From Virgisporangium aurantiacum (GTDB taxonomy: Bacteria > Actinomycetota > Actinomycetes > Mycobacteriales > Micromonosporaceae): a stretch of DNA of 64,000 bases. Where the stretch lies: assembly GCF_016863635.1 (NCBI RefSeq), contig NZ_BOPG01000012.1, forward strand, positions 248,001 through 312,000, written 5' to 3'. Positions 780 to 14,133 of the stretch are shown one piece after another (the stretch's first letter is position 1; every line of letters starts with the position of its first letter). A model generated the notes under the pieces. It searched no databases, was not told where the DNA came from, and saw only the letters and a program-made list of their open reading frames with translations. The translations under genes and the position numbers were made by a program.

Positions 780-1766
780 CTACAGCTTCGCCGGGCCGGC
801 CGCGTCGGCCTCGGACTCCGCCGCCGACTTGCGGGCCGCCGCCTTGCCAGGAGCGGTTTCGGGACGGTCGGCAGCCGCCTTGCCACCGGCCGAGCGCGCC
901 GCGGCCGCCGCCGCTGCCTGCTCGCCGACGACGCCGCCGCGGATGCGGTTGTTCGCCGCCACCTGCGCCGCCGGGTTGTTGGCGCTCAGCTGCAACTGGC
1001 CGTTGATGATGTTGTCGTCGAGCGACACCCCGCCGGTGGTGTTCGAGATCACCACATCCTTGCCCCAGTAGCCGCCGGACGCGCAGCCGTCGAGCGAGCC
1101 GTTCGGGCCGAGCTGGACGCCGCCGAGGTTGCCGGCGAACGTCGCCTTGCCCCGCACCGCGCTGCCGCACACGACGCTGCCGGTCGCGTTGTTCAGCACC
1201 GACAGCGCACCGTCCACAAAGGAATCGTGGACGTCGGTGTAGTACGCGCCGGAGCTGTTGACGTTGCCGGTCACCTGGGTGTTGCGGTCGAGGCGGGCCT
1301 CACCGACGTTCACCGCGACGTTGCCGGTGATCGTCGAGTTTTCCACGAACAGGAAGCCCTCGATGGTGGTCGTCCCCTTGGGCCGCAGCGTCACCGTGCC
1401 GCTGCTGCCGTTCTTCAGGTAGACGCCGAAGCCGCCCGCGTTCAACACGATCTGCCCACCGACGCTGGTGCCCGACGCGTCGAGGTAGCCGTCAGCGGCC
1501 ACCCGGATCTCGCCGCTGATGGTGCCGTTGTTGACAACCAGGTTGGCGCCGGCGGCCACCTGGACGTTGCCGGTGATGGTGGTTCCCTCGAGCGAGCAGG
1601 ACTCGCCCGCCGGCACGTACAGGTCGTTCGGCACGGTCACCGCACCGCCCGTCCCGATGCAGTAGGTGATGAGATCGGCCCGCGCGGCCGGTGCGCTCGC
1701 GCCCACGACGGACGCGGTGACGACCGCGGTCAGCGCCGCGAGCCTGGCGACGGTTTTGCTCGGCAT
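780..1766 (-). CDS. Secreted beta-repeat (polymer-forming-like) protein
   Basis: A 328-residue exported protein. Residues 1-30 form a Sec signal peptide ending APAARA. Residues about 60-270 consist of irregular repeats of the type ITGNVxV...GAxL (for example TITGNVQVAAGANLVV), the short-strand periodicity of a right-handed beta-solenoid. It resembles bactofilin or polymer-forming cytoskeletal modules but is secreted. Four cysteines (near 36, 57, 199 and 229) could form disulfides outside the cell. The last 45 residues are an Ala/Lys/Glu/Arg-rich low-complexity tail. The start has an AGGAGACCC binding site, and the gene lies 12 bases after the cupredoxin-Ig gene, so it is probably its operon partner. 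Function is unknown; a structural or wall-associated role is inferred. Confidence 0.75.
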   Translation of the reverse strand: MPSKTVARLAALTAVVTASVVGASAPAARADLITYCIGTGGAVTVPNDLYVPAGESCSLEGTTITGNVQVAAGANLVVNNGTISGEIRVAADGYLDASGTSVGGQIVLNAGGFGVYLKNGSSGTVTLRPKGTTTIEGFLFVENSTITGNVAVNVGEARLDRNTQVTGNVNSSGAYYTDVHDSFVDGALSVLNNATGSVVCGSAVRGKATFAGNLGGVQLGPNGSLDGCASGGYWGKDVVISNTTGGVSLDDNIINGQLQLSANNPAAQVAANNRIRGGVVGEQAAAAAAARSAGGKAAADRPETAPGKAAARKSAAESEADAAGPAKL

Positions 1767-1778
1767 CAGGGTCTCCTA

Positions 1779-3893
1779 TTAGGCGAAGGCGTGGAAGCTG
1801 CGGGATCCGATGGTCGACGCGGCGGCGGCCCGGACGATGGCCCCCTGGTCGCGGCGGGTGATGACGCCGTTGGTCACCAACGGCGCGGTGACCGACTGGA
1901 CGTGCCGCACGAACGTGGCGTGGTCGGGGTACTCCGCGTTCTCGGCGATCAAATCGTTGATGGTGCAGCCGTTTCCGGTGTCGACGTTGGCGACGCCGGT
2001 GTCGACGCCGTCGATGACGACGGTGGGGCGGGTGTCGGAGTTGGGGCACGCGTCCGACCCGGGCGCCACGACGGTGAACGTGACGGTCTGCTCGGCCGCG
2101 ACGTTCCCCGCGTTGTCGGTGGCCCGGTACTTCACCGCGTGCGGCCCGGTCGTGGTGACGCTGACCGGTCCGCTGTAGGCGATGTACGGCCCGGCGTCGA
2201 GCGCGTACTCGATGCTCCGCACCCCGGACTGCGCGTCGGTGGCGGTGACCGTGACGGTCGCCGAGCCGATGTAGCTGCCGTTACCGTCGCGGTTCCCGCT
2301 GACCGTCGCGGACGTCGTCGGCGCCGTGGTGTCCGGCACCGGCCGCCGCACGACCGTGAAGTTCACGAGACCCACGAGCGAGGTGTTGCCGGCGTTGTCG
2401 GTGGCACGGAACGACACCGTGTGCGCGCCGAGCGAACTCACCACGACCGGCACGGTGTACGTCGTGAACGAACCACCGTCGACCGCGTACTGCACGGTCG
2501 CCACACCCGACTCGGCGTCGGACGCGGTCACCGTGACCGTCGCCGAGTCGAGGTAGTTGCCGTTGGCGTCGCGGTCCCCCGTCACCGAACCGGAAACCGT
2601 CGGCGGTGCGGTGTCACCGGTCACCACCGTGAAGCTCACCGAGCCCTCGGGCGAGGTGTTGCCGGCGTTGTCGGTGGCCCGGAACCGCACCGTGTGCGCG
2701 CCGGCCGTACTCACCACGATCGGCGCGGGGTACCTGGTGAACGCGCCACCGTCGAGCGAATACTCCACGATCGCCACACCCGACCCGGTGTCGGACGCGG
2801 TCACCGTCACGAACGCCGACCCGACGTAGTTGCCATTGACGTCGCGGGTGCCCGACACCGAACCGCTGACGGTCGGCGGCGTGGTGTCGGCGGCCACGAC
2901 CGTGAAGCCCACCATGCCCTCCGGCGACTGGTTGCCGGCGTTGTCGACGGCCCGGTAGTGCACCATGTGCGCACCCGCCGAACTCACCACGACCGGCGCG
3001 GTGTACACGGTGAACGCACCACCGTCGACCGACGTTTCGATCCGGGCGACGCCGGAGTCGTCGTCGGTCGCGGTGACGGTCACCGTCGCGCTGCCGACAT
3101 ACCGGCCCTGCGCGTCCCGGTTCCCGCTGACGGCCGCGTTCACCGTCGGCGGCGTGGTGTCCTCGTCGTCGGGTTCGACGACGCGGAACTGCACGGAGCC
3201 GACAGCCGACACGTTGCCGGCGACGTCGGTGGCCCGGTACTGCACCGAGTGGTCGCCGATCGCCGTCACCACGACCGGCTGGGTGTACGGCACGAAACTC
3301 GTATCGTCGAGCTGGTACTCCACCGACGCCACCCCGGAACCGCCGGCGTCGGACGCGCCGACGGTGACCGTCGCCGATCCCACGTAGTTGCCGGCGGTGT
3401 CGCGGGTACCGGACACCGAACCGGAAACCGTCGGCGGCGTGGTGTCGACCGGGCCACCGGCCACCGTGAACTCGCCGACCATCGAGCTGTGGCCGGGGAT
3501 CGAGCAGAAGTACCGGTACCGGCCCGGTGTCAGGGTGACGGTGGCGGTGTGCCGGCCGTTGTTGGCGTCGAACGGGTTGGCCAGGATGTTGAGGTTGACG
3601 TCGTGGTTGTAGCCCTCCGTCGACGTGTCGAACGTGAGCGTGTGCGGCATGCCGGTGGTGTTGCCGGTCGCCTCGCTGTTCTCGAAGACGATCGTCGTCT
3701 CACCGGCGACCGCCGTCGTCGGCGCGGTCTTGTACCGGGTGATCTCGTTGTCCGTCGTCCACGTCAACGTCTGCGCCAACTGGACGACGGGCCGGCTCCG
3801 CGGCGTCGACGAAGCCGACGCCGGGGAGACCAGAACCGGTACGAGTGCTACAACGACGCCGGCTAACGCCAGCCATCGGCGGTGCAGATTCAC
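1779..3893 (-). CDS. Secreted cupredoxin with five Ig-like repeats
   Basis: A 704-residue exported protein starting at a GTG whose bases overlap the upstream stop (GTGA), which indicates translational coupling. A longer frame upstream lies inside the neighbouring gene. After a signal peptide (residues 1-28) comes a plastocyanin-like domain (about 40-147). Its type-1 copper ligands are visible: H84 in MPHTLTF, C130, H135 and M138 in FCSIPGHSSM. Five repeats of about 90 residues follow, each opening near DTTPPTVSGSVSG, with Y-x-GSATVTV and FRATDNAGN motifs (OmpL47/bacterial Ig type). The last 92 residues are a Cys-containing domain shared with the C-terminal part of the neighbouring 1325-residue protein. 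The likely role is an extracellular one-electron carrier on an extended stalk. The redox partner is inferred from context. Confidence 0.85.
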   Translation of the reverse strand: MNLHRRWLALAGVVVALVPVLVSPASASSTPRSRPVVQLAQTLTWTTDNEITRYKTAPTTAVAGETTIVFENSEATGNTTGMPHTLTFDTSTEGYNHDVNLNILANPFDANNGRHTATVTLTPGRYRYFCSIPGHSSMVGEFTVAGGPVDTTPPTVSGSVSGTRDTAGNYVGSATVTVGASDAGGSGVASVEYQLDDTSFVPYTQPVVVTAIGDHSVQYRATDVAGNVSAVGSVQFRVVEPDDEDTTPPTVNAAVSGNRDAQGRYVGSATVTVTATDDDSGVARIETSVDGGAFTVYTAPVVVSSAGAHMVHYRAVDNAGNQSPEGMVGFTVVAADTTPPTVSGSVSGTRDVNGNYVGSAFVTVTASDTGSGVAIVEYSLDGGAFTRYPAPIVVSTAGAHTVRFRATDNAGNTSPEGSVSFTVVTGDTAPPTVSGSVTGDRDANGNYLDSATVTVTASDAESGVATVQYAVDGGSFTTYTVPVVVSSLGAHTVSFRATDNAGNTSLVGLVNFTVVRRPVPDTTAPTTSATVSGNRDGNGSYIGSATVTVTATDAQSGVRSIEYALDAGPYIAYSGPVSVTTTGPHAVKYRATDNAGNVAAEQTVTFTVVAPGSDACPNSDTRPTVVIDGVDTGVANVDTGNGCTINDLIAENAEYPDHATFVRHVQSVTAPLVTNGVITRRDQGAIVRAAAASTIGSRSFHAFA

Positions 3894-6800
3894 AGGGTCC
3901 TCACTCTGACGTTGCGCAGTTCCATGAGGTCGTTGCTGCCGTGGTTCTGCAGCCCGATGAACCCGCTGAGGAACTGGCGGAGATCGGTCGGCGGATCGCC
4001 GGCCCGCGAAGACTGCTTGCCGGGCGTGTTGTCGAACTCGTTGATGACGACGCCGTTGCGGGTCATCGTGTAGTGCTGGCCGACCACGCGGATCTCGTAG
4101 TCGCTCCACACGCCCTTCGGCGTGGCACCGGCCTGCGGCAGCGTGAGGACGGGGTCGAAGTTGTAGACCGACCCGGTCTTCTGCGGCTCACCGGTCTCAC
4201 CGTCGTACATCTGGATCTCGTGTCCACAGTAGATGGCCACCCAGGCCTGCGACGTTCGCGCCGAACCGATGGTGCCGCAACTGCCCGCGGGCCGCTGGTC
4301 GAGCGGAATGCGCGGATCCGGGAACCGGACGAACGCGCCGCTGTTGGCACGGGTCGGATCCACCGAGACGTCGCGGAACTGCACCTTCAGGGAGAAGTTG
4401 GCGTACTCCTTGGCGGCGTACCAGAGCATGCCCAGCCCGCCCTGTGACAGCAGCGATCCGTCGGGTTGCAGCTTGAACGATCCGGACGGCGCCTGCACCC
4501 AGCCGGTCAACGACTCGGGTGTGCCGTCGAAGATCGCCTCGTACCCGGTGTGCCCGGTGCGGCCGATCGGCGACGCCGCCGCCGCGCGGGTCAACGCGCC
4601 GCTCTCGCGCCCGTTGAGGAAACCGTCGCGCTGCAGCCGGTCGGCCACCGCGGTGACGTGCCGCACGAAGCTGTCGTGGTCGGCCCACGTGCTGTCGTCG
4701 TCGATCAGGTCGTCGACGGTGCAGCCGCCGCCCACGGCACGGTTGGCCACGCCGGTGTCGGTGTCGCCGATGGTCACGGTGGCACCGCGGTCGGGCACCT
4801 GGCAGCCGACGGTCACCGTCGTGCTGACCTCGGCGACCTCACCGTCGGCGTACGTGACGGTCAGCCGCGCCGTGTACGTGCCCACGCGGGCGTAGGTGTG
4901 CCGCGGGTTCGCCTCCGTCGACGTGGCACCGTCCCCGAAGCTCCACTCCCACTTGATGCCGCCGGAGCGCGAACCGTTGAACGCGTACGTCAACGGCTTG
5001 TTCTGGACGGCCACCGCGAGCGCCGCCGGCGCCGGCGTCGCCGGTCCACCCTGGTAGGTCACCCGGACCATCTTCTGGTTCGAGTGCAGGGTGAAGAAAC
5101 CGCCGCCGTAGTCGAGCAGGTAGAGCGCGCCGTCGTTGCCGAACTTCGCGTCCATCCAGCTCTGCACCGTCGTCGAACTGCCGCCGGCCGGGATGATGGC
5201 CCGCAGCGACTCGGCGAACACCGGCGGCGCCGCCGTCGCCACACCGCTCGGATCGATGGTGACCGCGACGCGGTTGGTGGAGTTGGACTCGTCACCGATG
5301 AACCACTTGTTGTCCCAGTACGCCGGCCACGCGACGCCGCTGTTGGTGTTCACCTTCGAGCGGAGGTACGTCGGGCCGGACATCACGGCCTGGCCGCCGC
5401 CGCGCAGGTACGGCTGCGTGTAGGTGGCGTCGGCCGCGTTGTACGTCGGGATGTTGCTGCCGGGACGGTTCGGGAAGACCGGGCCGCCGCCGTCGGGCGA
5501 GTACCAGATCATGTTGTTCTTCACCGGCGGCAGGTCGACCAGGCCGGTGTTGCGCGGCGAGTTGTTCTTCGGGTTGTCGCAGTCGTACCACCCGGTGAGC
5601 ACCGTCGCGTCGGTGTTGCTGCGGTCGCGGTACGGCTGCTTGTTGCCCATGCAGTACGGCCAGCCGTGGTTGCCGGCCTCCGTGATCACCGTCGCCGTCT
5701 CGTACTTCGCCGGTCCCAGTTCGGGGTTCGGCGCCGCGGCGTCGGGGCCCACCCAACCGGCGGTGAGCCAGTTGTGCACCGGGTCCCACTGCAGGCGGGC
5801 GATGTTGCGCACGCCCATCACGTAGATCTCGGGGCGGGTCTTCGCCGTGCCGGGCGGGAACAGGTTGCCCGACGGGATCGTGTAGGTGCCGTCGGTCTCC
5901 GGGTGGATCCGGATGATCTTGCCGGCGAGGTCGTTGGTGTTGCCGGACGTGCGACGGGCGTCCTGGAAGCTGATGCCCGCGAACTCGGCCGTCCAGTTGT
6001 TGCCGGAGTAGCCGCTCGACCCCTCGGACGAGTTGTTGTCGCCGGAACCGACGTACAGGTTGCCGTTGTTGTCGAACGTCATGCCGCCACCGGCGTGGCA
6101 GCAGCTGTGGATCTGCACCGGGAACTGGAGCAGATCCTTGCGGGTCGACTGGTCGATCGTGTTGTTCACCTTGTCGTAGGTGAACCGGGAGATCGTCCGC
6201 TGGCCGACGCGCGTCGTGCGGTCGATCGACGCGTGCGGCATCCAGTAGACGTAGATCCAGTTGTTCGTCGTGAAGTTGGGGTCGGTGACGACGCCGAGCA
6301 GACCCTCCTCGTTCTTCACCAGTTCCCCGCCGCTGCCCCGGTTGCCCATGACCGCCAACGTGGTCAGCAGCTTCGTGGTCTTCGTCGCCGGGTCGTAGCG
6401 GTGGATCGTGCCGCAGCCGAGGCCGACGTTCGGGTCGTTCCAGTCGACGATCGCCCCGCTCGGGCAGGCCGCCTTGCCGACGTAGAAGATCGCGTTGTCC
6501 TGGGCGACGGTCATGCCGTGCGGCTCGCCGATCTGGTCGAGCTGCCCGGTCTGGTTGGCCGCGGTCAGCCGCTCGACCTTGTAGTTCGACGCGATCGTCG
6601 CCTGGCAGTCACCGCGCTCGATGCCGGTGGTCCAGCGCAGCGCGCCGGCGAGGTGCGTGCGGAACGCGGCCTCGTCGTAGCTGCCGACGGTGTGGCCCAT
6701 GCCGGTGTAGAAGGACCGGCCGCCCTCGAAGTCACGGCACCACGACACCGGGTGGAACGCGCCGTTGCCGCCCTGACCCGGGTTGTGCTTCCACTCCTCG

Positions 6801-7867
6801 ACCTGGGCGACCGTGTGCACGGTGCCGATCGGGTTCGGATCCCAGTTGTACCAACGGTCGGAGCGGGTCACCTTGAGCGGAAGCTCGGCGGTGGCCGGGT
6901 GCTGCCGGTCGAGGATGTCGACGACGCTCTGCTGCACGGCCGGTGGCGGCGGCGGTTCCGCGCTGCCCGCGAACAGCCGCAGGTCGGCGAGCTGGATGAT
7001 CGGCTCGCCGGAGTTCGCGGTGACGTTGAGCCGGTAGTGCGCGTACGTCGTGGTGTTGGCGACGTCGAACACGCGGGTCTGGAAGCGCTCGGCGAACGTC
7101 TGGCCCGTGCGGCGGTCGACGTCGACCCAGTCGGTGCCGTTCTGGGAGCCCTGCAGCGTCCAGTCGCGCGGGTCGCGGCCCGGGAAGTCGTTGGCCGACG
7201 TGAGCGCGTAGCCGTTCACCGCGGCCGGCGTGGTGAGTCGGAACGCGGCCCATCCGGTGGTGGCGAACGTCAGCCACTTCGTCCCGGAGTTGTTGTCGAT
7301 GAGCTTCTCTTTGGTCTCGTTCGGCGGGTTCTCCGCGCTGGCGGTCACCGCGGACACCGGCAGGGCCGCACGGATCGCACCGACGGGACGGGTGCCGATG
7401 AGACTGGTGAACCAGGTCGACTCCGGCTGCGCCTTCGCCGCGTCGGCGACGCCGAGGAACCCGTTGCCGGCCTTGATGTAGTTCTGCAGCGCGGTCTCCT
7501 GATCGCCGGTCAGCACCGCGCCGGCCGAGGACAGGAACACCACGCCGCGGTAGTTCGCGAGGTTGGCCGGGCTGAACACGGCCGGGTCCTCGGAGACCGT
7601 CACCGTGACGCCGTTGGCCTCGCCGACCTCGGTGATCTCGTCGGCGGCCTTGAGCACCGGGTCCTGCTGCTCACCGGCCGGGCCGTGGAAGACCAGCACC
7701 TGTACGGCGGTGTCGGCGGCGCCGGCGGGCTCGCGCACCGGTGTGGGCGCGGCGGACACGGGTGCCAGCGGCAGGCCCACGGTCACGGCCAGCACGGTCG
7801 CGGCGGCCAGCACGGGCCGCCACCTCCTGCGCCGGAAGCCGGATAGCGGGGGAAGCGTTCGCTCCAT
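3890..7867 (-). CDS. Secreted ThuA-F5/8C-sorbosone dehydrogenase-PKD-DUF1080 protein
   Basis: A 1325-residue exported multidomain protein with an Arg-rich signal peptide (1-39). Domains in order: a ThuA-like half (about 55-190); an F5/8 type C (discoidin) sugar-binding domain (about 195-305); the second ThuA half (about 310-430, with HPVSWCRDFEGGRSFYTGMG); a glucose/sorbosone-dehydrogenase six-bladed propeller (about 440-910, with IHSCCHAGGGMTFDNNGNLY); a PKD domain (about 945-1021, WSFGDGATSTEANPRHTY); an 87-residue domain shared with the next gene (1022-1108); and a DUF1080 lectin-like fold (1109-1325) related to 3-keto-disaccharide hydrolases. The start has AAGGAG. The family suggests oxidation of sugars or glycosides outside the cell, probably PQQ-dependent. 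Substrate and cofactor are not proven by the sequence. Confidence 0.88.
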   Translation of the reverse strand: MERTLPPLSGFRRRRWRPVLAAATVLAVTVGLPLAPVSAAPTPVREPAGAADTAVQVLVFHGPAGEQQDPVLKAADEITEVGEANGVTVTVSEDPAVFSPANLANYRGVVFLSSAGAVLTGDQETALQNYIKAGNGFLGVADAAKAQPESTWFTSLIGTRPVGAIRAALPVSAVTASAENPPNETKEKLIDNNSGTKWLTFATTGWAAFRLTTPAAVNGYALTSANDFPGRDPRDWTLQGSQNGTDWVDVDRRTGQTFAERFQTRVFDVANTTTYAHYRLNVTANSGEPIIQLADLRLFAGSAEPPPPPAVQQSVVDILDRQHPATAELPLKVTRSDRWYNWDPNPIGTVHTVAQVEEWKHNPGQGGNGAFHPVSWCRDFEGGRSFYTGMGHTVGSYDEAAFRTHLAGALRWTTGIERGDCQATIASNYKVERLTAANQTGQLDQIGEPHGMTVAQDNAIFYVGKAACPSGAIVDWNDPNVGLGCGTIHRYDPATKTTKLLTTLAVMGNRGSGGELVKNEEGLLGVVTDPNFTTNNWIYVYWMPHASIDRTTRVGQRTISRFTYDKVNNTIDQSTRKDLLQFPVQIHSCCHAGGGMTFDNNGNLYVGSGDNNSSEGSSGYSGNNWTAEFAGISFQDARRTSGNTNDLAGKIIRIHPETDGTYTIPSGNLFPPGTAKTRPEIYVMGVRNIARLQWDPVHNWLTAGWVGPDAAAPNPELGPAKYETATVITEAGNHGWPYCMGNKQPYRDRSNTDATVLTGWYDCDNPKNNSPRNTGLVDLPPVKNNMIWYSPDGGGPVFPNRPGSNIPTYNAADATYTQPYLRGGGQAVMSGPTYLRSKVNTNSGVAWPAYWDNKWFIGDESNSTNRVAVTIDPSGVATAAPPVFAESLRAIIPAGGSSTTVQSWMDAKFGNDGALYLLDYGGGFFTLHSNQKMVRVTYQGGPATPAPAALAVAVQNKPLTYAFNGSRSGGIKWEWSFGDGATSTEANPRHTYARVGTYTARLTVTYADGEVAEVSTTVTVGCQVPDRGATVTIGDTDTGVANRAVGGGCTVDDLIDDDSTWADHDSFVRHVTAVADRLQRDGFLNGRESGALTRAAAASPIGRTGHTGYEAIFDGTPESLTGWVQAPSGSFKLQPDGSLLSQGGLGMLWYAAKEYANFSLKVQFRDVSVDPTRANSGAFVRFPDPRIPLDQRPAGSCGTIGSARTSQAWVAIYCGHEIQMYDGETGEPQKTGSVYNFDPVLTLPQAGATPKGVWSDYEIRVVGQHYTMTRNGVVINEFDNTPGKQSSRAGDPPTDLRQFLSGFIGLQNHGSNDLMELRNVRVRTL

Positions 7868-7928
7868 GCCTGGCTCCTTCTGTGTGGGGAGGGGTGTGCG
7901 GCCTCGCGGCTCGCGCCGCGCGGCCGCG

Positions 7929-9026
7929 TCAGTCGCCGTGCGTGTGCGCCCGTGCGGGGTCGGGGCCGTGCACCTCGGGCGGGGCGATGAACTGGGGTGC
8001 CGCCAGGCCGTGCGCGTCGGCCGTCGCCTGCTGCATGGCGGCGTGGTTGGCGCCGTGATACCGGTCGATGGCCTCCTGCGCGCCGGGCGGCATGCTGCCG
8101 TCGGCGTTGCGCACGAGGAACAGGCCGACCATGCCGGTGTCGGAGTGCGACTGGACGTGGCAGTGGTACATCCACACGCCCGGGCCGACGCCCTCTCCGG
8201 CGAGCACCTGGAACCCGAACGAGTTGCCCGGGTTGAGATCCTTGTTGTCGACGACCTGGCTGGGGTCGGTCGTGCTCTCGAGCATGCCGGTGCGGTTGTC
8301 GGCCCACCGGTGGGCGTGGAGGTGGAACGTGTGGAACAGGCTGCCGTGCCCGATCGCGATCCACTCGACCCGCTGGCCCAGGTTGGCCTCGAACATCGGC
8401 GCGTTCGGGGCGATCTTGTTGTTGATCATCTGGTCGTTGAAGACGACCGTGAACTGCTTCTCCGGCAGGATGTCACCGCGCCGGCGGACGATCAGCCCGC
8501 CGTACAGGCCACGGATGAGGCCGCCGGTGCCGTGGTCGGTGCCCATCGCGTGGTCGTGGTAGTGCCAGTAGCCGGCGCTGCCGGGCATGAAACGCCGGCC
8601 GGCGGCTGCGGACATCTCCCGCGACCGCCACGTGTAGACCCGGGTCTCGCCGGGGTTGTTGAAGGACAGGTGCAGCGGGCTGCCGTCGGACTCGGTGCTG
8701 TAGTCGACGCCGTGCGGATGGATCGACAACCGCTGCGTGGTGTTGTTGACGAGGGTGACCTCCAGGGTGTCGCCCTCGTACATCTCCAGCAGCGGGCCGG
8801 GAATCGTCGCCTGTCCGGGTGCGAGGCCGTAGCCGTACAGGTTGCCCGGCAACGCCTCCGCGTAGATGGTGACCCGGCGGGTGGCCCCCGCGGCCTTGGC
8901 GGGTGGCGGGTTCCCGGTCATCACGCTGCCGAGCGCCGCCGCCGGGAGAGTGGCCGCCGCCGCGCCGGTGACCAGCACCGAACGCCGCGACAGGAGCCTG
9001 CGTAACAGATCGGCGTGCTGGCCCAT
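7929..9026 (-). CDS. Two-domain multicopper oxidase (small laccase type), Tat-exported
   Basis: A 365-residue enzyme. Residues 9-21 (RRLLSRRSVLVTG) plus a hydrophobic run form a Tat signal, as expected for a copper enzyme folded before export. All four copper motifs are present: HPHG (103-106), HYHDH (155-159), HTFHLHAH (232-239) and HCHVQSHSDTGM (288-299). The length and motif layout match the trimeric small laccases (SLAC) of streptomycetes, which oxidise phenols or other donors and reduce oxygen to water. The C-terminus is His/Pro-rich. The start follows AAGGGGGACGG. It lies 61 bases upstream of the sugar-dehydrogenase gene on the same strand, so the copper and sugar-oxidation genes may be co-expressed. 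Confidence 0.92.
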   Translation of the reverse strand: MGQHADLLRRLLSRRSVLVTGAAAATLPAAALGSVMTGNPPPAKAAGATRRVTIYAEALPGNLYGYGLAPGQATIPGPLLEMYEGDTLEVTLVNNTTQRLSIHPHGVDYSTESDGSPLHLSFNNPGETRVYTWRSREMSAAAGRRFMPGSAGYWHYHDHAMGTDHGTGGLIRGLYGGLIVRRRGDILPEKQFTVVFNDQMINNKIAPNAPMFEANLGQRVEWIAIGHGSLFHTFHLHAHRWADNRTGMLESTTDPSQVVDNKDLNPGNSFGFQVLAGEGVGPGVWMYHCHVQSHSDTGMVGLFLVRNADGSMPPGAQEAIDRYHGANHAAMQQATADAHGLAAPQFIAPPEVHGPDPARAHTHGD

Positions 9027-10011: not shown

Positions 10012-10823
10012 GGGTGCAGCTCCACGTGGCCGTCCCGCACGGTCACCACGACCTGGCCGGCCGGGAACAGCGCCAGCGCGGCGGCCGGCAACTGGATGCG
10101 GCCCTGACCGTCGATCGCGGTCGCGTGCGCCCGGCCGTTGTCGGTCTGCGAGGTGGTCCCGGACAGCACGCCCCGGCTCAGGTGCAGCACGGTGTCTGCG
10201 AACGCGACCGCCCGCGCGTCGTGCGTGGCCATCACGACGCCCGCCCCCGCCGTCGCGCACGAGCGCAGGTGCGCCAGCACCAGTTCGGCGGTGTCGTCGT
10301 CGAGTTCGGCCGTCGGTTCGTCGGCGACGATCAGCGCCGGCGGCCCGACCGCCGCCGCGGCCACGGCGAGGCGCTGCTGTTCCCCGCCCGACATCGCGGC
10401 CAGCCGGGCGCCGGCGCGCGCGGTCAGGTCGAGGGCGCGCAGGGCCGCGTCGGGATCCGGGTGGACGCGGCGCAGGCGCGCCACCTGCGTCAGCTGCCGC
10501 CGAGCGGTCAACTGCGGGAACAGGCAGTGGCCGGGCACCTGCGCGATCCAGCCGATCTCGCGGCGACGGATCCGGTGCAGGTCGCGCCGGCCGAGCGCCG
10601 ACACCGCACGGCCGCGCCAGCGCAACTCGCCGCCGGCCGGCCGCTCGCGCAGCGCCAGGATCGCCAGCAGGGTGGACTTCCCGCTGCCGGACGGCCCGGT
10701 GATCGCGGTGACCCGGCCCGGCCGCACCACGACGTCGACGCCGCGCAGCGCCTGCGTCGCACCGGTCGGCGCCGGATACAACTGCAGCAGTTCGGCACCG
10801 GCGAGAAGCCCCTCATCAGCCAC
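10008..10823 (-). CDS. ABC exporter ATPase with AbrB-like C-terminal extension
   Basis: A 271-residue ATPase. Walker A is GPSGSGKST, the signature is MSGGEQQRLAVAAA, Walker B is ALIVADEPTAELDD and the H-loop is ATHDAR. The ATPase core ends near residue 215. About 45 further residues include AIDGQGRIQLPAAALALFP and VTVRDGHVELHP, which looks like the GR-x-x-LP beta-hairpin of AbrB/SpoVT/MazE swapped-hairpin domains. The first 8 bases overlap the 3' end of the permease gene, so the three genes are translationally linked. Such a tail could dimerise the protein or contact DNA. This is inference from a short motif. The ATPase call is firm and the tail call tentative. Confidence 0.86.
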   Translation of the reverse strand: MADEGLLAGAELLQLYPAPTGATQALRGVDVVVRPGRVTAITGPSGSGKSTLLAILALRERPAGGELRWRGRAVSALGRRDLHRIRRREIGWIAQVPGHCLFPQLTARRQLTQVARLRRVHPDPDAALRALDLTARAGARLAAMSGGEQQRLAVAAAAVGPPALIVADEPTAELDDDTAELVLAHLRSCATAGAGVVMATHDARAVAFADTVLHLSRGVLSGTTSQTDNGRAHATAIDGQGRIQLPAAALALFPAGQVVVTVRDGHVELHP

Positions 10824-13560
10824 GGAACGCCTCCTCCTCCCGCGCCGACGAGCGCACGATCACCAGAAGAACGGCCAGCGCCGCCGCCACCACCGCAACC
10901 CCCAGGGTGACGCCCACCGCCGACGCCGGCACGCCGAACCGCAGCACCGGCACCTGATCCGGCACCGGGTCGAGCAGCCGCGCCGCCATCGGACGCAGCA
11001 CCGCCAGCCCGCCCACCGCGCACGCCAACGCCACCACGACCAGCGTGACGAGTTCCGCGACCCGGGCACCCACGACCTTCGCGCGTCCGACACCGACGCG
11101 GGCGAGCATCAGGTCACCGGGCCGGGCGGCCACCGCCGTCCGGTCGGCGTGCAGCGCCAGCGCGACGATCGCCAGCAGCGCCAGGTACGCCGCGACGGCC
11201 AGTTCGTAGCCGCGGGACTGGCGGGCCGCCACGTAGTCCGCGTCCTGCCGGTACTGCTCGATCGTCGAGACCAGGCCGGCGTCGACCGACCGCGGCGCCA
11301 CCACCTCGTCGATGCCACGCTGCCCGGTCGAGCTCCACAGCTCGGTGCGGGCGAAACTGGGCGCGCCGCCGGTCGGGCGCAGCCGCGGATCGTCGCGCCC
11401 CAGATGGCGGAACATGGCCGCGTCCGGCACGACGTACAGCGCGCGGTTCCCGAGCCCGGGGAACGCCGGCAGCTTCGCGATCACCAGCATCTGCCCGTTC
11501 CACCCGGCGAGGTTCACCGGCACGTCGTCGACGCGCGCGAGCGACGGATCGCCGACCACGATCGCCGGAACCTTCGATCCGGACACGTCCGCGGTCGCCA
11601 GTCGCCGCAACGCATTCCGGGCGGCGGCGAGGTCGGCGCCGCGACCCCAGTCGGCGACCCGCAGGAACGACTCCGGCTCGACCACGACGAGGTCGCGAAG
11701 CCCGTCGTCGTAGGGCGTCGTGGCGTCGAGCCGCCACACCAACGCGGCGTGTGCGGGCAGCGGCGGCGTGCGCACGCCGGGCACCAGGCCCTCCGGCGCC
11801 GGCCCGTCCTCCGGTTTCGGCTCGGGCGGCCGGTTCACCGCCTGGTCGTCGAGCACCCAGGAGCCCGGAATCGTGGCGACCGCGGCGGCACCGGCCGACG
11901 TCGCCACCCGGTCGTCGATGTTCACCGCCACGGTGTCCACGGCCGACACGGTGAACACCAGCATTCCGAGGCCGGTGGCCAGCAGCACCACGGTCAGCAC
12001 CCGTTCGCCGCCGGCCGCGAGCCGGCGGCGCAGCAGCCAGCCGACAACCATCGGCCTGCGGTCCGTGGTGGTCGTTCCTTTCAGCAGGGACGCGAGCCGC
12101 ACGGCCAGCGTGCCGCCGAGCACCCCGGCCGCGGCGAACACCAGCATCGGGACGACACGGTCGACGCCCCGCGCCTGCGTGGTGCCCCACATCCCGACCC
12201 CGGCGACCGCCGCCGCCACGATCACGAGCAGCCCCCACGGCCGCGCCCGCCGCGGCGAGACCGGTACGGCCGGCCGCACGCGTCGCGCCGCCGACAGCGC
12301 GGCCACCGCCGCGACCGTCACCGGACCGGCGAGCGCGGCAAGTCCGGCCGCGACCAGAGCCGGCCGCAGCGAGACGGCCGTGACCGGACCGGGCGGCCCG
12401 AACCGCTCGACCAGCACCCGCGCCAGCGCCCAGCCCGCGACCGCCGCGGGCACCGCCGGCACGAGGTGCTCCACGAACCACAGAATGCCCACAGTGGACG
12501 GTGCCAGCCCCGACCCGACGCTGTGCCGCAGTTCGAGCCGCCGTCGCCGCACCGCGAGGAGGCCGATCGCGAGCACCGACGCGAGCCCGACTGCCAGCGC
12601 CGCCCAGCCGGATACCCGGGTCCGCCGCTGCACCGCCTCCGCCGTCCCGGACGCGTCGGCGACCACCTGCGCGATCCCGCTGGCCACCCGCGGCGTCACC
12701 GGGCCGGCGTCGACCATGCGGCCGAGGTAGCGGCGCCGGACCTCTTCGACCTCGCGCGCGGCCGTGCGCGCCTCGACCAGGGTGGTGCCGGGCGTGAGCT
12801 TCGCGTCGGCCCACCACAGCATGCGGTCGCCGCTCGCCTTGGCCAGCCGTTCGATCGTGTCGATGTCGCCGATGAGCAGGTGCGCCTTCAACGTCGACGC
12901 CTGCGTGTCACCCGGAAAGTCGCGCTGCTCCCGCGCCCACGACGCGGCACCGCCGGGCGGGTCGGCCGGCAACCGGCTGCCGGCGACCGCGTAGACCCCG
13001 GCGATCCGCACCGCGACCCCGTCCGGGTTCGCGCCCAGGGTGTCGATCCGGTAGGTGACGGTGTCGCCGGCCCGCACCCCGAGATCGGTGGCCAGCGGCT
13101 CCGGCAACCAGACCCCGTCGCTTCCGGCCTCCCCGACCGGCACCAGCCGCGCGGTCGGATCCGTGACGGCGAGCAGTCGCGCGGTCAGCGCCCGCCCGCC
13201 GGCCGTCACCGTCGCCTCCCACCGCTTCGGCCGCACCGACTCCATGCCGACCGAGGCCCCACCCAACGTCGGCTCCGACAGGTGCCGCACCCCGCGCAGG
13301 TCCGCGATCGCTGTCTGCTGGTCGGCGCTGTTCGGCGACGCGGAGGCGGTGAGCCGCACCGCCACGTCCTCACCCTGGCTGGCCGTCGGCGAGATCGCCG
13401 CCAGCCGGCTGGCGAAGACCGCGTTGTCCGACGCCTCGTCAAAGATCGGCGCGGACGCCGCGGCGAGCGACGCCACGGTGAACACGGCCAGCACGAGGAC
13501 GGTCCACGGCCCCTGCCGCAACCACCCCGTCACCACGGCCGCCACCAATGGCCAGCGCAC
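10816..13560 (-). CDS. FtsX/MacB-type ABC transporter permease
   Basis: A large integral membrane protein (914 residues from this start). It has an N-terminal membrane helix (VLVLAVFTVASLAAASAP), a long extracytoplasmic region, a central group of helices (about residues 310-500) and a C-terminal group ending near residue 900. This duplicated FtsX-type layout is common in actinobacterial exporters. The GTG at 13560 is preferred because GGGGAGGT lies seven bases upstream. A GTG at 13623 would add 21 Gly-rich residues. It is the first gene of the three-gene operon and overlaps the downstream ATPase by 8 bases. The substrate cannot be told from the sequence. Confidence 0.83.
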   Translation of the reverse strand: MRWPLVAAVVTGWLRQGPWTVLVLAVFTVASLAAASAPIFDEASDNAVFASRLAAISPTASQGEDVAVRLTASASPNSADQQTAIADLRGVRHLSEPTLGGASVGMESVRPKRWEATVTAGGRALTARLLAVTDPTARLVPVGEAGSDGVWLPEPLATDLGVRAGDTVTYRIDTLGANPDGVAVRIAGVYAVAGSRLPADPPGGAASWAREQRDFPGDTQASTLKAHLLIGDIDTIERLAKASGDRMLWWADAKLTPGTTLVEARTAAREVEEVRRRYLGRMVDAGPVTPRVASGIAQVVADASGTAEAVQRRTRVSGWAALAVGLASVLAIGLLAVRRRRLELRHSVGSGLAPSTVGILWFVEHLVPAVPAAVAGWALARVLVERFGPPGPVTAVSLRPALVAAGLAALAGPVTVAAVAALSAARRVRPAVPVSPRRARPWGLLVIVAAAVAGVGMWGTTQARGVDRVVPMLVFAAAGVLGGTLAVRLASLLKGTTTTDRRPMVVGWLLRRRLAAGGERVLTVVLLATGLGMLVFTVSAVDTVAVNIDDRVATSAGAAAVATIPGSWVLDDQAVNRPPEPKPEDGPAPEGLVPGVRTPPLPAHAALVWRLDATTPYDDGLRDLVVVEPESFLRVADWGRGADLAAARNALRRLATADVSGSKVPAIVVGDPSLARVDDVPVNLAGWNGQMLVIAKLPAFPGLGNRALYVVPDAAMFRHLGRDDPRLRPTGGAPSFARTELWSSTGQRGIDEVVAPRSVDAGLVSTIEQYRQDADYVAARQSRGYELAVAAYLALLAIVALALHADRTAVAARPGDLMLARVGVGRAKVVGARVAELVTLVVVALACAVGGLAVLRPMAARLLDPVPDQVPVLRFGVPASAVGVTLGVAVVAAALAVLLVIVRSSAREEEAFRG

Positions 13561-13650
13561 CCGTTCGACCTCCCCCGCCGACAGCCCGCCCACATCCTGC
13601 CCCGGGCCACCCCCAAGGTCCACTGAACGCCGATCCCAACCGGGTACCCA

Positions 13651-14133
13651 CTACGGCGCCAGCCACCAGTTCAGCGGTTTGTCGTCGGCGTCGTAGACGT
13701 TCCCGTAGCTCCAGGGGCACTCATGATCAGCGGTCCAGTGATCGACGATTTCCTCGATCGCGGGGAAGCCCGCCGACACCGGCACCGTGATCACGATGAA
13801 CCTCCGGTGCACCGGCGTCTCGACGATTCCGCCGAGGCGCTCGAACGCGGTGGTCAGAACGGTGATGTCCGGGTCGGCCGGTGGTGCGGCGGGCCAGATC
13901 ACGAGGCAGAGGTTGCCGCCGCGTCGCAGCACCTCGAAGGTTCCGTCCTCGGTGACCCGGATCCGGTCGCCCGCCGCGCAGTCGTAGACCAGCGCCGGGC
14001 TGGCGAGAACGTCGTACACACCGGGCGACACCACCGTTGCCGGCACCTGCTCGTGAACGGGCTGCCCCTCCGCTGTCCCACCGGCCAACAGCATGACGTG
14101 CGTATGCTCGCGCTCGACCTTCTCGACCTCCAC
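13651..14133 (-). CDS. DUF4265 domain protein
   Basis: A 160-residue soluble protein. Features of the DUF4265 family are the beta-rich N-terminal half (VYDVLASPALVYDCAAGD, VLRRGGNLCLVIW) and the C-terminal WSYGNVYDADDKPLNWWLAP. Members are small cytoplasmic proteins of unknown role, sometimes near toxin-immunity genes, but no toxin is seen here. It lacks a signal peptide. It is transcribed leftward and separated from the permease gene by about 90 bases, so it may have its own transcript or share a weak read-through. Family confidence is moderate to good and functional knowledge is nil. Confidence 0.78.
   Translation of the reverse strand: MEVEKVEREHTHVMLLAGGTAEGQPVHEQVPATVVSPGVYDVLASPALVYDCAAGDRIRVTEDGTFEVLRRGGNLCLVIWPAAPPADPDITVLTTAFERLGGIVETPVHRRFIVITVPVSAGFPAIEEIVDHWTADHECPWSYGNVYDADDKPLNWWLAP

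Follow-up and report, generated by a model that had tools for sequence, protein, structure and literature searches.

A conserved module of small laccase, cupredoxin and ThuA-propeller-DUF1080 fusion in Virgisporangium aurantiacum and other actinobacteria, and its possible role in extracellular glycoside oxidation

The small two-domain laccases of Streptomyces (SLAC and Ssl1, type B) have repeatedly been crystallised and engineered, and were studied as free oxidases of phenols and lignin. Their roles are called speculated in a review, and according to another paper most of the bacterial laccases characterised so far have no known physiological function (PMC7036934, PMC3527528; these and the other articles cited by number are quoted from excerpts). 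In the window analysed here, a stretch of 64,000 nucleotides from Virgisporangium aurantiacum (contig NZ_BOPG01000012.1, positions 248,001 to 312,000), a close relative of these laccases (best solved relative 3t9w, 446 bits) is encoded together with a secreted cupredoxin protein and a secreted fusion of ThuA, a GSDH propeller and DUF1080. Other described systems resemble parts of this module. In Caulobacter, LacABC oxidises a glycoside outside the cytoplasm, and the proposed next step is cleavage of the 3-keto product by a DUF1080 protein (PMC9007349). The module has a GSDH-type propeller instead, with copper proteins as likely carriers, and no LacABC-type dehydrogenase was among the Pfam matches of its four proteins (a genome-wide search for one was not made). 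Soluble pyrroloquinoline quinone (PQQ) glucose dehydrogenase (sGDH), aldose dehydrogenases and AA12 enzymes have the propeller fold and a catalytic histidine in common with the module. Unlike these enzymes, however, the module propeller carries two cysteines (CysCys) before this histidine, has apparently lost the PQQ arginines, and is part of a fusion with ThuA and, in the majority of loci, with DUF1080. Finally, the copper nitrite reductases 2dv6 and 6tfd also place a cupredoxin beside a two-domain copper enzyme, the fused cupredoxin presumably donating electrons to the reductase. In the module the proteins are separate, and a laccase with a trinuclear site replaces the nitrite reductase. The features of the locus are:

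7929-9026, minus strand: laccase, a two-domain SLAC-type multicopper oxidase of 365 amino acids with a twin-arginine signal (Pfam and sequence reading)
3890-7867, minus strand: secreted fusion of 1325 amino acids, ThuA (split) - GSDH propeller - PKD - X - DUF1080
7373-7732 (limits approximate), minus strand: first half of ThuA, in the fusion (Pfam)
7007-7348, minus strand: F5/8 type C domain inserted into ThuA (Pfam)
6629-6943, minus strand: second half of ThuA, in the fusion (Pfam)
5033-6607, minus strand: GSDH propeller region with the vicinal CysCys-His motif and an insert of about 20 amino acids (Pfam, alignment, model)
4811-5017, minus strand: PKD domain, in the fusion (Pfam)
4547-4810, minus strand: domain X, fusion copy, two cysteines
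3899-4546, minus strand: DUF1080 / 3-keto-disaccharide hydrolase domain (Pfam; PDB 3imm)
3890-3893, minus strand: GTGA, fusion stop overlapping the cupredoxin start
1779-3893, minus strand: secreted cupredoxin protein of 704 amino acids, type-1 cupredoxin - five OmpL47 repeats - X
3429-3794, minus strand: type-1 cupredoxin domain (Pfam Copper-bind)
2064-3443 (limits approximate), minus strand: five OmpL47-type repeats
1782-2060, minus strand: domain X, cupredoxin-protein copy
780-1766, minus strand: fourth gene, a secreted repeat protein of 328 amino acids, DUF5649 match below the cut-off

The preliminary description of this DNA had taken laccase, fusion and cupredoxin for a set, and the relatives bear this out: the three genes are co-inherited as one conserved unit. 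A scan of genome contigs with the cupredoxin as query gave 48 named loci, from Actinoplanes/Paractinoplanes, Virgisporangium, Dactylosporangium, Catenuloplanes, Amycolatopsis, Actinophytocola, Streptomyces and other genera. In all 48, laccase, ThuA-GSDH and DUF1080 adjoin the cupredoxin (in L087, the X-DUF1080 part is a separate reading frame). Among 101 relatives, cupredoxin, laccase and the full-length fusion (at least 1909 bits) were each found in 22, and these are the identical 22 genomes. The best fusion match in the other relatives was 410 bits, apart from G007 (69% complete, 1080 contigs), where two fragments of the fusion, and neither cupredoxin nor laccase, were found. Of the 21 cupredoxin-positive relatives besides V. 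aurantiacum itself, 20 were fetched; G035, also positive, was left out.

The same association is seen on a broader scale. Among 295 genomes assigned by inference to Streptomyces (the genus of G224), 175 have both laccase and cupredoxin, 12 the laccase only, two the cupredoxin only and 106 neither (Fisher p ~2e-63, uncorrected for kinship); one of the two counted as cupredoxin-only, G678, does hold laccase pieces. All 132 pairs with both places printed are divergent and less than 6 kb apart. In a draw of 396 genomes from the phylum, the same seven genomes of this genus were positive for laccase and cupredoxin, and all seven hold the module. Five other genomes of the draw gave weak cupredoxin matches (37-45 bits) without a laccase match, and eight others hold a laccase. 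These genome searches scored only the top candidates from a permissive first screen (6 or 14 per genome), and misses are possible. Laccase, ThuA-GSDH and DUF1080 are present in all 76 annotated loci, 72 of which are distinct (L108, L109, L110 and L111 duplicate L043, L048, L068 and L047). All 76 had been selected by the cupredoxin; laccases without it were measured by the genome-wide laccase searches instead. Because the genes are conserved over the 76 loci and co-occur genome-wide, chance adjacency is very unlikely, and the counts across the 101 relatives, 295 genomes and 76 loci led us to discard it. The genes almost certainly form one functional unit.

Within this unit the genes stay together, which the preliminary description had named as a check, but their order is not constant, with at least four orders in the 76 loci. 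Laccase > fusion > cupredoxin is followed by the fourth gene in 22 loci and lacks it in 16; 20 loci have the order laccase < > ThuA-GSDH > cupredoxin-X-DUF1080, and 11 have cupredoxin-X-DUF1080 > laccase > fusion with its own DUF1080. The remaining seven are single-case patterns, and the orders of L045, L073 and L077 may be artefacts of stop-to-stop frames. DUF1080 thus sits in the propeller protein, in the cupredoxin protein, or in both. L116 has a shorter propeller protein next to its cupredoxin, without F5/8-C, PKD and X, and the full fusion on another contig; in L066 and L117 no X was seen in the cupredoxin protein. The fourth gene is kept in 17 of 49 loci (window plus the 48) and in seven of 20 family loci. 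No other neighbour gene was seen to recur across genera when the flanks of nine loci were compared with all 48. Two frames of L070 that matched 45 and 29 loci belong to no Pfam family and were dismissed as antisense readings of the laccase gene region: they overlap module frames, without being one, in 43 of 46 and 28 of 32 matches.

In V. aurantiacum, reading frames and Pfam matches confirm the adjacent positions of the three genes on the minus strand, and the GTGA overlap noted previously is real. The cupredoxin gene starts with GTG at 3893 and its stop ends at 1779, and AGGAG precedes the start codon of the fusion. The name given to the second gene, a sorbosone dehydrogenase/DUF1080 fusion, was right in both its parts and incomplete: the Pfam matches are ThuA, F5_F8_type_C, GSDH, PKD and 3keto-disac_hyd, and the split ThuA, F5/8-C, PKD and X domains had been overlooked, as had the five OmpL47 repeats of the cupredoxin protein and its own copy of X. 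The same is true for the fourth gene on the same strand; together with domain X, it rules out a set of three genes only. The gene joints consist of a 61-nucleotide gap between laccase and fusion, a 4-nucleotide overlap between fusion and cupredoxin, and a 12-nucleotide gap between the cupredoxin stop and the fourth gene, which has TAGGAG ahead of it. The fourth gene is probably co-transcribed, and the order and spacing suggest that all four genes are on one transcript.

Both copper proteins have kept their sites. The laccase is small and of the twin-arginine type, as had been recognised: it starts with RRLLSRRSVLV and matches Cu-oxidase_2 and Cu-oxidase_3. In the S. chryseus locus the laccase reaches 601 bits against 3cg8, which we take to be the S. 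coelicolor SLAC. Ten histidines and the cysteine are present in all 49 loci, and the methionine in 47. We assume that these ten histidines are the copper ligands, and that one further histidine, kept in 46 of 49 loci, is the equivalent of a non-ligand in SLAC. With two cupredoxin domains, the type-1 cysteine in the second and ten histidine ligands, the protein belongs to the type B two-domain (SLAC) laccases. A twin-arginine pattern precedes it in 47 of 49 loci, the exceptions being a truncated frame (L087) and RRSFNR, which is outside the search pattern (L076). The cupredoxin domain matches Copper-bind (24.6 bits, cut-off 21.2), and its type-1 ligands, previously described as intact, are so in all 49 loci (His, Cys, His, Met). 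The best solved match of its profile is 2dv6, presumably a nitrite reductase bearing a fused cupredoxin.

The DUF1080 domain is equally clear (PF06439, 104.5 bits, curated cut-off 26.8). One member of this family is the 3-ketotrehalose hydrolase BT2157, and a second, next to a periplasmic 3-dehydrogenase, has been put forward as a 3'-ketolactose hydrolase; an endo-xanthanase/lichenase is also among the listed members, which calls for caution with the 3-keto hydrolase reading (PMC9007349). Domain X, about 80-90 amino acids long, is common to both large proteins, at the C-terminal end of the cupredoxin protein and between PKD and DUF1080 in the fusion. Two cysteines are invariant in all 42 aligned copies. 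In Pfam it has a sub-cut-off match only, and its predicted model (mean predicted local distance difference test, pLDDT, 87.2) had no solved Foldseek match at E <= 0.001; we do not take it as a new fold. Domain X may be a docking or anchoring part. One further copy lies elsewhere in the V. aurantiacum genome (L017, frame 6084-8495).

The propeller of the fusion matches Pfam GSDH (4.9e-20). Its predicted model (pLDDT 77.6, predicted template modelling score 0.87) best matches soluble glucose and aldose dehydrogenases (3a9g, Z 31.8, root-mean-square deviation 2.9, 333 aligned; 8re0, Foldseek 1.8e-17), and lower-ranked matches include HHIP, AA12, NHL and DFPase. H171, the equivalent of the catalytic His144 of sGDH, is found in 40 of 40 module propellers. 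Likewise invariant are the equivalents of Arg228-Asn229 and Gly247-Pro248, which we take to be PQQ/Ca site residues of sGDH. CysCys stands directly ahead of the catalytic histidine in all 40, and in all eight larger paralogues of the V. aurantiacum genome (14.1 Mb, 97.64% complete, 9.05% contamination). The insert of about 20 residues (...DWN.P.VG.G.G..H), whose Trp, three Gly and His are invariant in the 40 module propellers, is absent or nearly so in the eight paralogues, and could mark the contact with the cupredoxin. These further paralogues (L009-L015; contigs C95, C3, C44, C53, C22, C11 and C65) are in several cases adjacent to ThuA and DUF1080 or fused with them, and the one on C3 carries OmpL47 repeats. 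ThuA or GSDH parts occur on nine further contigs of this genome.

From this set of parts we infer the substrate, the order of the reactions, each electron-transfer step and the cofactor. The ThuA-GSDH protein would bind a glycoside, of which the propeller would most likely oxidise a ring hydroxyl (C3 would fit), and the DUF1080 domain would cleave the resulting keto-glycoside. The propeller would hand its electrons to the cupredoxin, and the cupredoxin to the two-domain laccase, each of these two copper proteins receiving them at its type-1 copper. The trinuclear site of the laccase would then reduce O2 to water, which would make the small laccase the terminal oxidase of the unit. The OmpL47, PKD, F5/8-C and X domains may tether the parts together, or to the wall or the substrate. 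That the cupredoxin hands electrons to the laccase is rather likely, while for the whole chain, from propeller through cupredoxin and laccase to O2, we see the chances as about even. The odds seem similarly balanced for a glycoside being oxidised and then cleaved by DUF1080, a reading proposed by analogy because of the precedents of Caulobacter LacABC-DUF1080 and BT2157 (PMC9007349). The preliminary description had envisaged a sugar being oxidised by the propeller. The sugar-oxidising propeller family stands, and the ThuA and DUF1080 parts point to oxidative glycoside cleavage and not to the simple oxidation of a free sugar. Extended to the SLAC-type laccases in general, the proposal would be that their physiological role is not phenol oxidation but the reduction of O2 at the end of a secreted, copper-wired machinery for glycoside oxidation, and that the large ThuA-linked propeller family has a cofactor site other than canonical PQQ, with CysCys beside the catalytic histidine; this is tentative, and on balance we doubt that it holds as a whole.

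Several observations weigh against such a chain. HHIP, a non-redox protein, has the same fold as the propeller model. At the position of sGDH Arg406, arginine is found in none of the 40 module propellers, and at that of Arg408 all 40 have methionine, in an alignment stretch that is below threshold; 14 of the 40 have an arginine one residue before, and the paralogue on C3 has one at the 406 position. In the eight paralogues, the 408 position is Met or Ile. These apparently altered positions weaken PQQ as the cofactor. In addition, the V. aurantiacum genome gave no match for PqqC, and a single one for PqqE (125 bits, cut-off 381). Because PqqC is absent, PqqE sub-cut-off and PQQ-contact residues apparently changed, the redox activity of the propeller is uncertain. 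In the flanking DNA fetched for the eight GSDH paralogues (two of which reach a contig end), neither a cupredoxin nor a laccase is encoded, so this propeller family works without the pair. The laccase adds its own points. In type B two-domain laccases the type-1 copper faces a tunnel in the centre of the trimer, and a type B enzyme of another superfamily than SLAC is only slowly re-oxidised by O2; its authors question whether O2 is its natural oxidant, and propose non-lignin roles for this slow-turnover enzyme (PMC13151041). SLAC itself oxidises phenols in vitro (PMC3918160). Moreover, among the 12 inferred-Streptomyces genomes of the laccase-only set (13 loci), ten genomes (11 loci) have no module gene nearby.

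The rarity of PqqC is not special to module carriers: it was found in 14 of the 101 relatives, namely one of 22 carriers (G054) and 13 of 79 non-carriers. PqqE is above the cut-off in 13 of the 101, and among the carriers in G054 alone. Of 14 control genomes, none has PqqC, and eight have a PqqE match, none above the cut-off. The preliminary description had assumed a PQQ-dependent propeller; the GSDH fold and the His144 equivalent uphold the propeller, and PQQ itself is doubtful. We have set the simple PQQ assignment aside on the absence of PqqC and the apparently changed arginine positions. A small GSDH of the same genome (L012, 4354-5583) was considered as a canonical PQQ reference; its best match is HHIP, so it was not used.

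The laccases found outside the module allow a closer look at the pairing with the cupredoxin. Two of the laccase-only loci (L186 and L198) keep remnants of ThuA and/or DUF1080, and three (L188, L190 and L198) stop at a contig end. In a FastTree tree of 97 laccases, the laccase-only sequences are nested among module laccases, and losses are therefore likelier than an old independent line. In the same tree, eleven loci of one gene order and L116 group with the distant L168 and L169, outside the branch of the window. Judging by this grouping, these twelve have putatively exchanged their laccase and retained the rest of the module. In six of the eight distant loci from the phylum draw, a plastocyanin-type cupredoxin adjoins the two-domain laccase. 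It is fused to a NosD-like beta-helix in four of them (L165, L166, L167 and L169), and in L164 it lies on the strand opposite the laccase. Of the two exceptions, L163 has a contig that stops at the laccase, and L170, with its laccase near a contig end, shows no cupredoxin. Query searches found no ThuA-GSDH parts in the eight stretches. Because of this, and because six of eight loci are paired, the laccase-cupredoxin pair appears to recur without the propeller.

This recurrence bears on another reading, in which two reactions run in parallel from one locus: propeller and DUF1080 split plant glycosides and so set free phenolic aglycones for oxidation by the laccase, and the cupredoxin takes the electrons of the dehydrogenase elsewhere, to the respiratory chain. 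The phenol oxidation by SLAC would suit it, and the Caulobacter lactose dehydrogenase that partners DUF1080 is reported to act on the phenolic glucoside salicin as well (PMC3918160, PMC9007349). However, the distant pairs without ThuA-GSDH point to a direct tie between cupredoxin and laccase, and we regard this reading as unlikely. Very unlikely, in our view, is a role of cupredoxin and laccase in copper handling or the detoxification of cuprous ion on the envelope, with the carbohydrate domains as anchors. Multicopper oxidases of the CueO and CopA type do serve such functions, with NCBIfam matches here far below the cut-off, and adhesion is a likely function of OmpL47, PKD and F5/8-C. Yet the full type-1 site with its cysteine in 49 of 49 loci is an electron-transfer site, the enzyme domains are retained, and the comparison of the flanks of nine loci with all 48 brought up no other gene that recurs across genera.

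The remaining alternatives concern the propeller. It could be a lectin-like or hydrolase-like element with no redox role, comparable to the HHIP or DFPase folds, with the donor of the cupredoxin elsewhere. The missing PqqC, the apparently changed PQQ residues and the HHIP, NHL and DFPase matches would agree with this, but the invariant equivalents of His144, Arg-Asn and Gly-Pro, and the sugar dehydrogenases as top matches of the model, make it quite unlikely. Alternatively, the chain could run as in the preliminary description, with a plain PQQ-dependent propeller using PQQ scavenged from neighbours, a variant that is compatible with the electron chain from glycoside to O2 preferred here. Not every prokaryote makes PQQ, and AA12 enzymes bind it without an equivalent of Lys377 (PMC4133262, PMC6881789). 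The fold and the His144 equivalent are conserved, and the comparison at Arg406/408 rests on a weak alignment, with an arginine one residue away in a third or so of the propellers. Against it stand the single PqqC-positive carrier among 22, and the apparent replacement of both arginines throughout the module propellers, and we consider scavenged PQQ possible and somewhat doubtful.

The preliminary description had known of no system with this composition, and none was found among the open-licence papers searched; neither was a paper linking SLAC to the fusion and the cupredoxin, nor one on the gene context of the S. coelicolor laccase. In a public plasmid record (L199), the annotation of the parts goes no further than multicopper oxidase, ThuA protein and 'family 16 glycoside hydrolase' protein. 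The named parts belong to known families; their combination, its conservation and the tie to SLAC are apparently new to print, as far as these papers go. For a group of enzymes so often engineered, the tight gene context names likely partners, and the role of the small laccases is now testable with three purified proteins. The conserved three-gene neighbourhood in soil actinobacteria suggests that their job is to pass sugar-derived electrons to O2 outside the cell. If true, this would be a second wiring, via copper proteins, for oxidative glycoside breakdown. It also flags the large ThuA-linked propeller family, with its parts on so many contigs of one genome, as a cofactor question.

In L157, L160, L161, L162 and the plasmid record L199, a regulator of the LacI family is encoded next to the laccase and on its strand. 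Such a gene lies within 2.1 kb (centre-to-centre, same strand) in four of the seven Streptomyces-type loci of the phylum draw (5.4 kb in L158) and near the laccase in five of the 13 laccase-only loci; it is missing from all 15 named Streptomyces loci, a few of which have short flanks. This neighbour is no more than a hint of sugar control. A PIG-V-like mannosyltransferase is encoded near the laccase in L163, L165 and L166. In the window itself, 10816-13623 encodes a permease-like protein of 935 amino acids without a Pfam match, with two ABC ATPase genes downstream; a relative of it is near the module in one of the 48 loci (L043). A DUF4265 protein is encoded on the minus strand at 13651-14133.

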